From the NCBI GenBank assembly GCA_903878265.1, contig CAIRHD010000439.1:1-39808 (forward strand): a DNA stretch of 39,808 nucleotides, in the 5' to 3' direction. The notes under the pieces were generated by a model. That model ran no database searches. It was not told where the DNA came from and worked only from the letters and a program-made list of their open reading frames with translations. Positions 7,601 through 39,212 of this stretch are shown here, piece after piece; position 1 is the stretch's first letter, and every line of letters starts with the position of its first letter. The DNA comes from an uncultured Bacteroidales bacterium (GTDB taxonomy: Bacteria; Bacteroidota; Bacteroidia; Bacteroidales; UBA4417). The position numbers were made by a program, and so were the translations under genes.

Positions 7601-7664
7601 TTGTTGTGCCGCGATTGTTGATACTAAATAAAAATTCTACTTTTTGCCATTAGTTTCATTTTCA

Positions 7665-7765
7665 AATCCTCTCATTTTCAAATTTTCGCATTTTCAAATT
7701 TTCGCATTGCCACATTGCCACATTACCGCATTGCCGCATTGCCACATTACCGCATTATCACATTA
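7665..7765. repeat. Short tandem repeats of CATTTTCAAATTTTCG and CATTGCCA/CATTACCG type
   Basis: Copies of CATTTTCAAATTTTCG are followed by about eight units of CATTGCCA/CATTACCG/CATTATCA. The same family, read on the opposite strand (AATGTGG, AATGCGATAATG), recurs at 30663-30748. The array abuts the lptE stop codon. No coding function is seen. Confidence 0.8.
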
Positions 7766-21280: not shown

Positions 21281-22225
21281 TTACAAATATCGGGTATTTC
21301 GGTATCCTGTCCGTGTTTTGTCACGCTCTATTTTGAACCTGTATCGTGCCATAATTTCATGGCTTCCGGTTGCAGCGATCCTGCTGGTAGGAATATCGTA
21401 GGAATAACCAATTTCCAAGTCTTTGTAAGCCATGCCAACCAGTAAGGAAATTGCATCGTTATACCGATACGATACCCCGCCCCAAATTTTATTGTTGTAC
21501 TTGGCAATTATATTAAGGTCTGCTTGGATTACATTCCCATCCGATTCGATAAAGACTGAAGGTGTGAATACATATCCCTGATATGCAGGGAGAATTATGT
21601 CGTGCCCACCTGTAAGATAATAATGGCGGCGGTTTTTGTAATAATTGAGACCATCGTTGGTGCTTGATTGTTTAGCTGTTTCGAAAATCTGGGTGGAAGA
21701 AAAAGCAATATAATACCGCGGTTTTTGCAAAAATGCACCAATAGACAAATCACTTATCATAACACCATCGGTAGGAAGGCCTGTAATTACAGGATCTCCT
21801 TCATCAACAGCATTAAGTTTCTCTGTATTGATAGTTTTGTTGTTAAAATTACCATTTATTCCAATGCCCAATATGCCGCTGCCGAGATTGGCATGGTAGG
21901 AGTAGCCTAATTTTACGAGCATGTTTTTTATTTGCCCTTCCTTGTCTTGGGCAATCCCAAAACCGACCCCGCCATGTAGGAAACGCAAAGGCGCATCGGC
22001 ATTTACCAAAAAAGTTTCGGGAGATACTTTATCGCCCTGATCATCCTTAAAACCAAGCCATTGCTCACGGAATATCCCAGTAAGAGTTATGCCATCGCTC
22101 ATCCCATACGAACCAGGATTTACAAATTGGTGGTTATACATATTATGCGTAAATTGTGGCCCTTGCTGCGCCCTTAACCCAATGGAAAAGACCGAGATCA
22201 GAAATACAAAAAAAGCAGTACGCAT
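21281..22225 (-). CDS. porP: Type IX secretion system membrane protein, PorP/SprF family
   Basis: A 314-residue outer-membrane beta-barrel protein. From the ATG at 22225 it has a good signal peptide (RTAFFVFLISVFSIGLRAQ); an ATG six codons upstream is also in frame but weaker. The mature N-terminus QGPQFTHNMYNHQFVNPGSYG is the family hallmark, followed by REQWLGF and strand-rich repeats ending in a basic RYRFKIERDK segment. PorP is needed for T9SS cargo secretion in Porphyromonas, and SprF is its homologue that exports SprB in Flavobacterium. As first gene of the gldKLMN operon it is in the PorP position. Confidence 0.92.
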   Translation of the reverse strand: MRTAFFVFLISVFSIGLRAQQGPQFTHNMYNHQFVNPGSYGMSDGITLTGIFREQWLGFKDDQGDKVSPETFLVNADAPLRFLHGGVGFGIAQDKEGQIKNMLVKLGYSYHANLGSGILGIGINGNFNNKTINTEKLNAVDEGDPVITGLPTDGVMISDLSIGAFLQKPRYYIAFSSTQIFETAKQSSTNDGLNYYKNRRHYYLTGGHDIILPAYQGYVFTPSVFIESDGNVIQADLNIIAKYNNKIWGGVSYRYNDAISLLVGMAYKDLEIGYSYDIPTSRIAATGSHEIMARYRFKIERDKTRTGYRNTRYL

Positions 22226-22614
22226 AAACAAAAAAGGCTGCATAAGTAATGTTCAAAAAGTGCGCTAAAGTAATAATAAATTAGGTTTGGCAAATAATTA
22301 TCGTTGCAATAGGTTCATTTTGTTGTAGCGACAAGTTTACCTTTGCTATTTTAGGTGAAGCAATAACGGCAGTAATGTTCGTTTATTGCTATACCGCTAT
22401 TGTTGAAATAAGGGATTTTGCAATGAATACAATAGGAGTAGTTCTTTTTAGAAGTTCGAAGATTGATGATGATAGCTTGATAAAAGTATCGTGAAAACAA
22501 CAGAATTATTTATTCTTTTTCATTAGTAACCGACAAACTTTTTAAATGAACAAGTCGGTCAACCGAGGCTGACCAACTTGTATCTTTACTGTGTAAACTT
22601 CCAATTTATACAGC
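22226..22614. other. Intergenic region between porP and the IS4 transposase
   Basis: No gene is seen. The stretch must hold the T9SS operon promoter (minus strand) and the left flank of the insertion element. Two mutually exclusive hairpins can form: AGCAATAA (22359-22366) with TTATTGCT (22383-22390), or CAATAACGG (22361-22369) with CCGCTATTG (22394-22402, one mismatch). I could not find a terminal inverted repeat or target duplication marking the element's left end. Confidence 0.5.
22551..22580. promoter_or_regulatory. Imperfect palindrome upstream of the transposase gene
   Basis: The arms 22551-22561 (CAAGTCGGTCA) and 22570-22580 (TGACCAACTTG) are complementary except for one position and are separated by 8 nt. 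The palindrome ends 34 nt before the transposase ATG. It may be a leader hairpin limiting expression of the transposase, or part of the element's end. Confidence 0.4.
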
Positions 22615-23853
22615 ATGAGCGAAAATACAAATAAAAATTTAGTCGGCCAGCCGATCTTAACACAAGTTTTAGCCTTAGTTATCAGGAATAAGTTCAACGG
22701 ATTAGTAACCAAGCACAAATCAGACAGATACTATAAAAAGTTTTATACATGGACACACTTTGTAAGTATGATGTTTGGTATTTATATCCGCTTTGACTCA
22801 GTTACCGAAATAGTCGAAGTTATGATAGGTTGTGTTGGTAAAATAGGTCATTTTGGTCTGTCAGAAGTGCCACCCAAAAGCACAATAAATGATGGTAACC
22901 GCGAGCGTGACAACAAGTTCTTTGAATCGCTATACTTTAGTTTAGTGAATCGCTACTCAAGTTTTTTGTCGTCCAGCCGAACCATTGGGCTCAATATTAA
23001 AGAACTGTTTATTGTCGGTTCCACGACTATTCAGCTTTTTAGCAGTCTTGTTTTTAAAGGTGTGGGACGCAACCCCAAAGGTGTGGGCAAGAAAAAAGGG
23101 GGTATAAAAGTTCATATGCTTATTGATGCTTTTCAGGATGTAGGCAAATTTGTAAAAGTAACAGCAGCTAAAGTTCATGACAGCAAATTTTTGAACGACT
23201 TGACACTTAACCCCTTTAGCATGGTAGTGTTTGGTAAAGCTTACAATCATTACAAACTCTTTGCCAAGTGGACGGAAAAACAAATATGGTTTGTTACCCG
23301 CATGAAGGACAACGCAGTATATGAAGTTGTACAGATCATACATGAAACCATCATACCAGAAGGTAAAGCAGGCGTATTGAAAGAAGAAAAGATAAACCCG
23401 TGTTATAAAGAAAGCGCGAAAAGCAAAGATGTTAAGACATTGTTATTGCGAAGAATAACTTATCGGGATGATAAAGGACGTTTGTATGTATTTATCACGA
23501 ATAATATGGCGCTCACAGATCAAGATATTGCTGATATCTACAAACAACGCTGGCAGATAGAGTTGTTGTTCAAAAAGATGAAGCAAAACTTTCAGTTGCA
23601 TTGCTTTTATGGTGAAAGCGAAAATGCTATTCGCCTTCAGATTTGGTGCACGCTTATCGCCCAACTGTTATTGACCGTATTACAACGTAAAACAAAAACT
23701 AAAAAAGTATTTTTTACTGTTGCTTGTATAGTAAGGCAACATCTGTTGAGTTACTTGAATTTGGAAGAACTGCTCCTTAACTCAAAGCGATTCTATGATA
23801 AGTATCACATATCTGTTGATTACAGTGATAGTTTGTTCCCTTTAACAGGATAA
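22615..23853 (+). CDS. IS4-family transposase, full length but lacking both catalytic aspartates
   Basis: A 412-residue protein of the IS4 family subgroup with the DUF4372-type N-terminus (GQPILTQVLALV; HKSDRYYKKF; PPKSTINDGNRER). The C-terminal signature Y-(2)-R-(3)-E-(6)-K is intact (Y309, R312, E316, K323). The two expected aspartates are not: the usual VDSTTI reads VGSTTI with G135 (GGT, 23017-23019), and the usual VFDKxY reads VFGKAY with G207 (GGT, 23233-23235). Each needs one A-to-G change from GAT. The frame is otherwise complete, with no stop or frameshift. As read, the product should bind DNA but not cut it. Terminal repeats were not recognised. It separates the T9SS operon from the MFS/porW genes. 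Confidence 0.9.
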   Translation: MSENTNKNLVGQPILTQVLALVIRNKFNGLVTKHKSDRYYKKFYTWTHFVSMMFGIYIRFDSVTEIVEVMIGCVGKIGHFGLSEVPPKSTINDGNRERDNKFFESLYFSLVNRYSSFLSSSRTIGLNIKELFIVGSTTIQLFSSLVFKGVGRNPKGVGKKKGGIKVHMLIDAFQDVGKFVKVTAAKVHDSKFLNDLTLNPFSMVVFGKAYNHYKLFAKWTEKQIWFVTRMKDNAVYEVVQIIHETIIPEGKAGVLKEEKINPCYKESAKSKDVKTLLLRRITYRDDKGRLYVFITNNMALTDQDIADIYKQRWQIELLFKKMKQNFQLHCFYGESENAIRLQIWCTLIAQLLLTVLQRKTKTKKVFFTVACIVRQHLLSYLNLEELLLNSKRFYDKYHISVDYSDSLFPLTG

Positions 23854-23860
23854 AAATAGG
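22615..23860 (+). mobile_element. IS4-family insertion sequence, ends not determined
   Basis: The element is defined only by its transposase gene. No terminal inverted repeats or short direct target repeats were found in the flanks (22226-22614 and 23854-23997), so the true limits are unknown and the element may be decayed at its ends. Confidence 0.55.
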
Positions 23861-23997
23861 GGGGCTGCTTTTTGCAATTAAATTTTTAAGACTGAATATC
23901 AATATGATATAAACAGAATATGCCAACTCTTGAGTTTAGTCGCTAAAAAATGAAAAACAATAACATATAATCGAGCATCATCAGTATAAAAATATTG

Positions 23998-25179
23998 CTA
24001 TATGTTGTTTTTTACTAACATCCTTTGGTAATGTGGCAGCGAGAAGAACAGGAAATACAGTAAGGCAATAATATTTAGAAAACCATAAATAAGGTATGTA
24101 TGCGGCAAGCCTATACCGTGGGCGAGAAAGCCGGTGAGCAACATTCCAAGGCCAATTCCAAGATCAAGCCCAGAGAAAAGGGTCGAGTTGGCAGCTCCGC
24201 GCCGTTGTGGGGTTACAAGGTTATTGACCATCGCCTGAAAGGTAGGAAAAACCACGCCACTGCCCAGCCCAATCAGGCAAGCTGTTAACATAAACGCCGT
24301 AGTGTTTATAAAAAAACCAAGTATCAGATGTCCAACAGCAAGTAAAATCAGGCCAATAATGGCAAGTACTTTAGGCCCATGTCGGTCGAATATTTTTCCC
24401 ATATAAATCCGGGCCACTGCAATGCCAGCAGCAAAAACAATAAAAAACAAACCTGTATTTCCAACCCCTGTTTTTATCGAATATAGGGACACAAACGAAA
24501 CCAATCCACCATAACTGATATTAATAAGCAATAAATTAAAAGTAACCGGTAAAGAACTTGATTCCAAAAGGTTGCGCCATGAAAATGACTGTTTTGAAGC
24601 CTTTGACACTTCTGGGTAGCGTATCCACAGCGTAAGCGAAAAACCGGCAAGGGCAAGTACTCCTGCAAACAGGAACATGAGCGTATAGTCTTGATGTGCG
24701 GTAAGTTGCAACCCAAGAAAAGGGCCAATTGCCATTGGTATTGTCATGGCAAGCCCATAAAGACCAATGCCTTCACCCCTTCGTTCGGGCGGTATTATAT
24801 CAACGATTAGTGTACTTCCTGTGGTTGTTGTTACGCCCCAAACCAAACCATGCAAAAACCGCACTGTCAGTATCATCACAAAGGCACCAGCCAAAGGGTA
24901 TAAGCCAAATATGAGTGCAAAAATAAGGAACGCTGTAATGTAAAAATATTTCCGGCCATGCCTGTCGATCATATATCCTGTAAAAGGCCTTACAAGCAGT
25001 GCTGCCAAGGTATATATTGCAAGCACAAGCCCTATTTGCCCTTCTTCAATTTTTAAATCCCGATTCAGGAAAATCGGTAGTGTAGGTAGCAGTATGTAAA
25101 ATGCCGTGAACATCAGCAAACTGGCAAAAAACACCAAGGTAAAATCTCCCCGGAAAATCGATCCATTTGTTTTTGTCAT
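23998..25179 (-). CDS. Major facilitator superfamily transporter
   Basis: A 393-residue inner-membrane protein with about 12 hydrophobic helices. The motif A loop GYMIDRHGRKYF (68-79) between helices 2 and 3 and its half-repeat GKIFDRHGPKVLA in the second half are clear MFS signatures. The first half also has RFLHGLVWGVTTTTGS, similar to motif B/C regions of drug/proton antiporters of the DHA1 type. The substrate cannot be told from sequence. It lies between the transposase and porW on the minus strand, 306 nt after porW, so cotranscription is doubtful. Confidence 0.88.
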   Translation of the reverse strand: MTKTNGSIFRGDFTLVFFASLLMFTAFYILLPTLPIFLNRDLKIEEGQIGLVLAIYTLAALLVRPFTGYMIDRHGRKYFYITAFLIFALIFGLYPLAGAFVMILTVRFLHGLVWGVTTTTGSTLIVDIIPPERRGEGIGLYGLAMTIPMAIGPFLGLQLTAHQDYTLMFLFAGVLALAGFSLTLWIRYPEVSKASKQSFSWRNLLESSSLPVTFNLLLINISYGGLVSFVSLYSIKTGVGNTGLFFIVFAAGIAVARIYMGKIFDRHGPKVLAIIGLILLAVGHLILGFFINTTAFMLTACLIGLGSGVVFPTFQAMVNNLVTPQRRGAANSTLFSGLDLGIGLGMLLTGFLAHGIGLPHTYLIYGFLNIIALLYFLFFSLPHYQRMLVKNNI

Positions 25180-30636: not shown

Positions 30637-30662
30637 GCTATTATTTTAATTTGAAATTTTGA

Positions 30663-30748
30663 AGATGTGGGAATGCGATAATGAGTTAATGTGGGAATGC
30701 GATAATGAGTTAATGTGGTGGTGAGTTAATGTGGGAATGCGATAATTT
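30663..30748. repeat. 24-nt tandem repeat, AATGTGGGAATGCGATAATG type
   Basis: The 24-nt unit beginning ATGTGGGAATGCGATAATG and ending AGTTA occurs twice perfectly, then once with an 8-nt loss, then partly. On the other strand it matches the CATTGCCACATTACCG family at 7665-7765; a single related fragment also occurs at about 30829-30836. It begins about 25 nt after the dxr stop. Confidence 0.85.
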
Positions 30749-38322: not shown

Positions 38323-38340
38323 CAAACAAATCAACTTCTT

Positions 38341-38967
38341 ATGAAAATCCTTATTTGTGATGACCATAAAATTGTGCGCGACGGCCTAAGGCGGATCCTT
38401 CAGCAGCAGCAAGAAACTACATTTATTAGCGAAGCTGCAAATGGGGATGAAGCAATAAGCCTGTTAAAAACCGAATTGTTCGATATAGTTTTATTGGATA
38501 TTACCCTTCCTGGAAGGAGCGGGTTAGAAGTGCTGCAATCGGTAAAGCAAAAATGGCCATCAACAAACGTATTGATGTTGAGCATGCACCCACAGGAACA
38601 GTATGCCATACGTGCGTTAAAACTTGGGGCTTCAGGCTATCTTACTAAAGATGCAGCTTCCGAAGAGTTGCTTGAGGCTGTGCAAAAAGTAGCGAAAGGT
38701 GGAAAATATATTTCACATTCACTTGCCGAAAATCTCGCACTGCATGTTGGCAGCGATGAATATCAACAAAAACATGATATACTTTCTGTTCGCGAATTTG
38801 AAATTTTAATAAAACTTGCCAATGGAAAATCGCTGCAAGAAATTGGAAACGAGCTTTTTATATCCATCAAAACAGTGAGCACCTACCGAAGCCGCATTAT
38901 GGAAAAAATGGAATTGAGCAAAAATACCGACCTTACAAAATATTGCATCGAAAACAAATTGATATAA
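38341..38967 (+). CDS. NarL/FixJ-family response regulator
   Basis: A 208-residue DNA-binding regulator. The receiver domain spans about 1-120 with acidic D7/D8, phospho-acceptor D53 (DIVLLDITLPGRSG) and the LTKDAA segment with the conserved Lys. A LuxR-type helix-turn-helix fills about 144-206 (LSVREFEILIKLANGKSLQE; ELFISIKTVSTYRSRIMEKM). It is the expected partner of the HisKA_3 kinase just upstream, since that kinase class pairs with NarL-type regulators. The 182-nt gap between them holds dyads and a direct repeat, so its expression may be controlled separately from the kinase. Target genes are not evident. Confidence 0.95.
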   Translation: MKILICDDHKIVRDGLRRILQQQQETTFISEAANGDEAISLLKTELFDIVLLDITLPGRSGLEVLQSVKQKWPSTNVLMLSMHPQEQYAIRALKLGASGYLTKDAASEELLEAVQKVAKGGKYISHSLAENLALHVGSDEYQQKHDILSVREFEILIKLANGKSLQEIGNELFISIKTVSTYRSRIMEKMELSKNTDLTKYCIENKLI

Positions 38968-39212
38968 GCCCATTGTTTTTTACTGATTATCCATTATTGA
39001 CAAGTTGAAGAAAAGTTATAAAACATATATCCTTTTTTTATCTTGCAACTTTCGCCCTATTATAATTTAATTGTTTTGAATTCGTACATCTTAGTGAAAC
39101 TATCTAAATAACTTCCCCGAAACAAAAATCGGAATCTCCTTATTAATATGTATAAAACTCCACTTATGGATGTGTCGTTTATCAAACATAACGTCCCTGA
39201 CGGGCATATGCG

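Follow-up and report, generated by a model that had tools for sequence, protein, structure and literature searches.

An open reading frame in the window, the 39,808-nucleotide stretch of an uncultured Bacteroidales genome analysed here, encodes a full-length transposase that has glycines in place of two catalytic aspartates. It raises the question of whether an intact frame with a disabled active site belongs to a protein that has taken on a new role or to an insertion sequence (IS) that has died. The answer that we favour, with a probability of about 0.86, is a catalytically dead, decaying copy of an IS4-family element, located at the join of two insertions, and not a repurposed gene. The loss of catalytic activity would follow from the loss of the residues.

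The open reading frame (22,615–23,853, forward strand) starts with ATG and continues for 412 codons without an internal stop or frameshift, as the original prediction had stated. Its product matches the IS4 family transposase model NF033592 (transpos_IS4_1) with 197.4 bits, against a cut-off of 115, and the Pfam domains DDE_Tnp_1 (PF01609, residues 130–351) and DUF4372 (PF14294, residues 11–82) are both above their gathering scores. An AlphaFold model, built from 21 sequences, has a mean pLDDT of 73 and a pTM of 0.72. The best structural match of the model is the Tn5 transposase (1mm8_A; Z 18.6, rmsd 4.4, 319 residues), and the Tn5 inhibitor (1b7e) matches with a Z of 14.0, while a sequence search of the PDB with the protein returned nothing at E up to 1. 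The IS4 family is described as marked by the signature Y-(2)-R-(3)-E-(6)-K and by a transposase encoded in one ORF without a programmed frameshift (PMC2266710). The 412-codon ORF has both features, including the exact spacing of Tyr309, Arg312, Glu316, and Lys323, and lacks the complete D-D-E triad, which reads Gly135, Gly207, and Glu316. The ORF and its element are probably best regarded as a dead member of the IS4 family, placed there by ancestry and not by function. Carriage by a phage was considered and rejected, since a phage collection contained no match to the transposase and its sole relative on a viral contig is 54% identical. The plasmid relatives comprise 347 records, all below 60% identity.

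Both substitutions are at catalytic positions. In the family alignment, Gly135 (GGT, 23,017–23,019, forward strand) and Gly207 (GGT, 23,233–23,235, forward strand) align with the aspartates of the DSTTI and FDKAY motifs, respectively, whereas Glu316 of the YREK signature (GAG, 23,560–23,562, forward strand) is kept; these assignments agree with the original prediction. In the model, residue 135 is part of beta strand 130–140, residue 207 of strand 202–208, and Glu316 of helix 313–328, an order that we take to be the one expected for a DDE triad. The match to the Tn5 triad is one of strand and helix order, not of residue-by-residue alignment. A catalytic site elsewhere in the protein was ruled out by the family alignment, the exact YREK spacing, and the Tn5-like model. 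Alignment with the closest relatives, which had been proposed as a check, gave the same result: L024, the nearest full-length relative (83%), and L026, the nearest partial one (80%), have GAT at both sites. A third GAT-to-GGT change on the window branch, found by branch comparison, produced Gly156 (23,080–23,082, forward strand), which is outside the triad and sits between the other two. The three codons prompted us to consider targeted A-to-G mutation, which was rejected because A-to-G changes make up 18 of 91 on the window branch versus 20 of 80 on the L024 branch.

The loss of both aspartates is unique in the sampled relatives, whereas single losses recur. We compared 46 distinct relatives, each with 40% identity or more, an open frame of 370 codons or more, and an alignment spanning 360 residues or more; other loci were excluded. 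The triad is D/D/E in 44 of them, G/D/E in L055, and D/A/E in L100. A wider count covered 98 distinct loci (107 given, nine duplicates dropped) from outside the window's own genome. The first site is readable in 81 of these, with 78 Asp, two Gly, and one Met, the last from the poorly aligned L011; the second is readable in 86, with 81 Asp, two Asn, two Tyr, and one Ala. Non-aspartate residues thus occur in 3/81 and 5/86 loci. Position 316 is Glu in 93 loci; L100 is gapped there, although the alignment of the 46 relatives gives it a Glu. The D135G/D207G pair, which was to be sought in other genomes, did not turn up: none of the 80 distinct loci readable at both sites has lost both aspartates. 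The argument that decay should bring stops and frameshifts first proved weak, as L055, L100, and L020 combine open frames with single catalytic losses, and a sister copy in the window's genome, on contig C361, has frameshifts together with a deletion. The open-frame IS4-family copies L055 (2001–3194, in a Prolixibacteraceae MAG) and L020 (G009:C147) each have Gly at the first catalytic aspartate and are distinct from the window copy.

The original prediction also held that exactly the two metal-binding residues had been lost and everything else kept, which the conserved positions contradict. The 46 relatives share 137 positions at a conservation of 95% or more, and the window protein departs at 12 of them: K3E, L53M, S58I, C60F, G69V, L77I, D135G, D207G, Q215L, E303Q, A365V, and S367F. 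Four of these (K3E, L53M, Q215L, and E303Q) are common to the window protein and L024, and the remaining eight are absent from L024, the triad of which is intact. In a leave-one-out comparison among the 46 relatives, the sole one to depart more often than the window protein is the divergent L137 (43/141), followed by L100 (11/133), and the other 44 have at most nine departures. S58I, C60F, and G69V are also present in a second copy in the same genome, on contig C468, and therefore predate the split of the window and C468 copies; they need not reflect decay. A365V and S367F are younger than the divergence of the window copy from the C361 sister. The chance that eight random changes on the 137 constrained positions strike both aspartates is about 0.3% (28/9316). 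This figure is small but post hoc, and a single catalytic loss is already one route to the death of an element.

The pattern of substitutions is consistent with relaxed constraint in the catalytic part of the gene. Over codons 129–412, with changes polarised by L026 and with a rough classification inside multi-change codons, the 91 changes on the window branch divide into 55 synonymous and 36 nonsynonymous, and the 80 on the L024 branch into 63 and 17 (Fisher p 0.013). Since the split from C361 (23,273–23,853), the window copy has gained five synonymous and six nonsynonymous changes, and C361 one and nine. For a neutral nonsynonymous share of 0.73–0.80, six or fewer of 11 has a probability of 0.13 at 0.74, which is not distinguishable from neutral; the changes after the C361 split would fit relaxed constraint but fall short of proof. 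In the first 124 codons, the window branch has 18 synonymous and eight nonsynonymous changes, the L024 branch 24 and 15, and the broken copy in the genus relative G008 nine and nine, so that this part of the window branch is no more relaxed than that of L024.

Copies with D/D/E were also to be looked for in the same genome. The window's own assembly comprises 5.78 Mb in 629 contigs, and the search found two further copies, on C361 and C468, and none with D/D/E. The C361 sister is 93–94% identical, has about 650 bp deleted, including both aspartate codons, and carries E316K and three single-base indels in its coding part. The C468 sister is 98% identical from the left end of the element, with an intact N-terminal frame (97% over residues 1–70), and its contig ends 305 bases into the element, before the catalytic region; the final 136 of these bases are identical to the window copy. 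Codons 135 and 207 are outside the coverage of both contigs, so the D-to-G changes could not be timed. The 15 other genomes of the genus contain no full-length match above 56% identity, and the one at 56% retains both aspartates; the search at the rank of family covered the same 16 genomes as that of the genus. Among 393 genomes of the order, ten matched at E up to 1e-100, including the window's own, and the other nine are 43–58% identical.

The genus relative G008 and locus L085 are represented by the same contig. A locus of G008, L126 (G008:C119:10000–15500), contains on the reverse strand a left-hand remnant of the element, 476 bp long and 87% similar to window positions 22,513–22,988. The remnant is joined directly to a stretch (window 38,339–38,977) that is 71% similar to the window gene at 38,341–38,967, which leaves the element in L126 cut short next to a relative of a different window gene.

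The element containing the ORF is 1432 bp long (22,521–23,952, forward strand), as delimited by its inverted repeats and by comparison with L024, L026, C468, and C361. The left inverted repeat is CATTAGTAACCGACAAA, and the right one, read on the reverse strand, is CATTTTTTAGCGACTAAA, which is degraded relative to CATTGTTAACCGACTAAA in L024. The ends are also backed by target duplications, mostly of 9 bp, beside similar ends in relatives: in 25 relatives, counted without a shuffled control, there were eight exact 9-bp duplications, one of 9 bp with one mismatch, one repeat of 11–13 bp, two weaker matches, and 13 cases with none. Terminal inverted repeats and a target duplication of about 10 bp would be expected of an IS4-family element. 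The window element has the inverted repeats but no target duplication of its own, as the nine bases to its left (22,512–22,520, ATTCTTTTT) and the nine to its right (23,953–23,961, forward strand, AAAAACAAT) agree at 2/9 positions. The right nine instead agree at 8/9 positions with ACAAACAAT, immediately left of the C468 copy, which would make them the right copy of a duplication whose partner is beside the element on contig C468. Matches of 8/9 to ACAAACAAT occur at 31 of 39,800 window positions, this one included, and at one of 838 in an intergenic sample.

The flanking genes show the same mismatch. The left neighbour (21,281–22,243, reverse strand, 320 aa), presumably a PorP-like protein, is conserved in the genus. 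The right neighbour (23,998–25,179, reverse strand, 393 aa), which we take to be an MFS-type transporter, adjoins a tRNA-Ser(GGA) gene in all five relatives examined (G009, G010, G011, G013, and G015), and its protein is matched in 12 of the 16 genus genomes, the window's own included. Beyond the left neighbour, none of the four relatives read for at least 12 kb (G010, G011, G013, and G015) has a window-like MFS gene. C468 has the sole full match in the assembly to its tRNA-Ser(GGA) gene, approximately 165 bases from the element. When joined, the left flank of C468 and the right flank of the window align across the junction with a site that is uninterrupted in G015 (514 columns, 71%) and G011 (519 columns, 68%). 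Both sides align in separate pieces in G010 and G013, and in G009 the alignment is limited to the tRNA and a part of the MFS gene. None of the five relatives has an element between the tRNA-Ser and MFS genes. From the match of the C468 and window flanks and the uninterrupted tRNA-Ser-to-MFS site, we infer that the window element joins halves of two insertions. Its right half would belong by descent with the left half of C468, and its left half, beside the gene at 21,281–22,243, would come from another insertion.

The join may have arisen either from IS–IS recombination between two inverted copies, which would invert the DNA between them, or from misassembly across a repeat, two routes that sequencing reads would be needed to distinguish. 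The order of the wider region suggests that one true inversion would give the window arrangement. In G011 and G013, the block at 25.5–30.6 kb of the window is found in inverted order about 4 kb past the left neighbour gene; in G010, a part of the block (29.5–30.6 kb) has the same inverted order about 11.5 kb beyond that gene. In G015, the block is contiguous with the MFS gene and tRNA-Ser and is absent from the 12 kb beyond the left neighbour. No single relative examined has the whole ancestral order. Repeats of about 100 bp at window positions 7656–7765 and 30,646–30,748 are shared with an array in G015 (L169 7474–7862, spacing of about 104 bp). A dispersed repeat of up to about 150–200 bp (L168 8193–8414, G015:C195), near a relative of the left-neighbour gene, has matches of 66–84% on 13 contigs of the window's genome, some of the matches being only 45–60 bp long.

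By recombination or misassembly alike, the sequence at 22,690–23,952 is not assignable with confidence to one copy, and both glycines may therefore not be on one molecule. We regard it as possible, though clearly the lesser prospect, that the double mutant is a mosaic of at least two copies, each perhaps with one change, or that one base is a consensus error. The join of two different insertions, the fragmentation of the assembly, and the end of C468 inside the element, as can occur at a repeat junction, would be compatible with such a mosaic. On the other hand, neither base has a direct sign of error, the frame is intact throughout, and A-to-G changes are not over-represented. The mosaic overlaps with the dead-copy explanation, because at least one of the copies would still be dead.

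A dead, decaying copy is supported by the eight departures that are absent from L024, the nonsynonymous share of 36/91 versus 17/80, the recurrent catalytic losses in relatives, the mismatched flanks, the degraded right inverted repeat, and the dead C361 sister. The first 124 codons, with no sign of relaxation, the frame free of stops and frameshifts, and the age of S58I, C60F, and G69V count against it. An active ancestor would have spread a few copies in the genome, and catalytic loss would have removed purifying constraint from the window copy, after which further conserved residues may have been lost. The left half of one insertion would then have been joined to the right half of another, by inversion through homologous recombination or by misassembly. 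Selective loss of the two aspartates is not supported. Among the three options originally offered, chance or sequencing changes fit best, whereas domestication is without support and a repressor of sister elements without positive evidence.

It is improbable that the protein acts in trans as an inhibitor, by still binding inverted repeats and dimerising with active subunits, similar in effect to the Tn5 inhibitor. The full-length frame, the fold retained in the AlphaFold model, the mostly synonymous N-terminal changes, and the presence in the genome of one or more other copies whose N-terminal frame is intact (C468) would be compatible with such a role. However, no D/D/E sister was found in the assembly, C361 is dead, and conserved residues outside the active site differ too (S58I, C60F, G69V, L77I, A365V, and S367F). 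Any dead copy might inhibit passively, and there is no sign of selection for inhibition. The narrower proposal that the transposase is a natural dominant-negative silencing the near-identical C468 copy, with the D-to-G pair retained for that effect, is slightly more doubtful still. Least credible of all is a domesticated DNA-binding protein serving the host, which the intact frame and start codon would allow but which is at odds with an ORF still inside recognisable inverted repeats at the join of two insertion sites, a tRNA-Ser/MFS site that is empty in the five relatives, the absence of double aspartate loss from the 80 loci, and a best match in the genus of only 56% with both aspartates, so that conservation at one place was not found.

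The dead copy itself is biologically minor, as dead IS copies are common. It carries two cautions: a transposase that has lost catalytic residues should not be taken as domesticated because its frame is intact, and, where an assembly is fragmented, an IS in the interior of a contig can be a join of two copies, the mutations of which need not share one molecule.

TnpA-REP proteins are described as domesticated prokaryotic transposases kept outside the IS life cycle and fundamentally different from classical transposases (PMC8266576). In contrast, the window ORF still lies between the ends of its element, and its conservation was not found. The Tn5 inhibitor and the Tn5 transposase are encoded by one gene, the inhibitor being the shorter product. 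The window protein resembles the Tn5 (IS50) transposase and inhibitor in fold, and the notion that an inactive transposase may block active ones is shared, whereas the window ORF has point changes in a decaying copy, without evidence of function. Compared with the IS4 family, the window copy differs in having Gly for two of the three catalytic residues, no target duplication of its own, and a degraded right inverted repeat. Like the family, it has one unshifted ORF, the YREK signature, inverted repeats that begin with CA, and a length of 1432 bp, and its relatives have duplications of mostly 9 bp where these were found.
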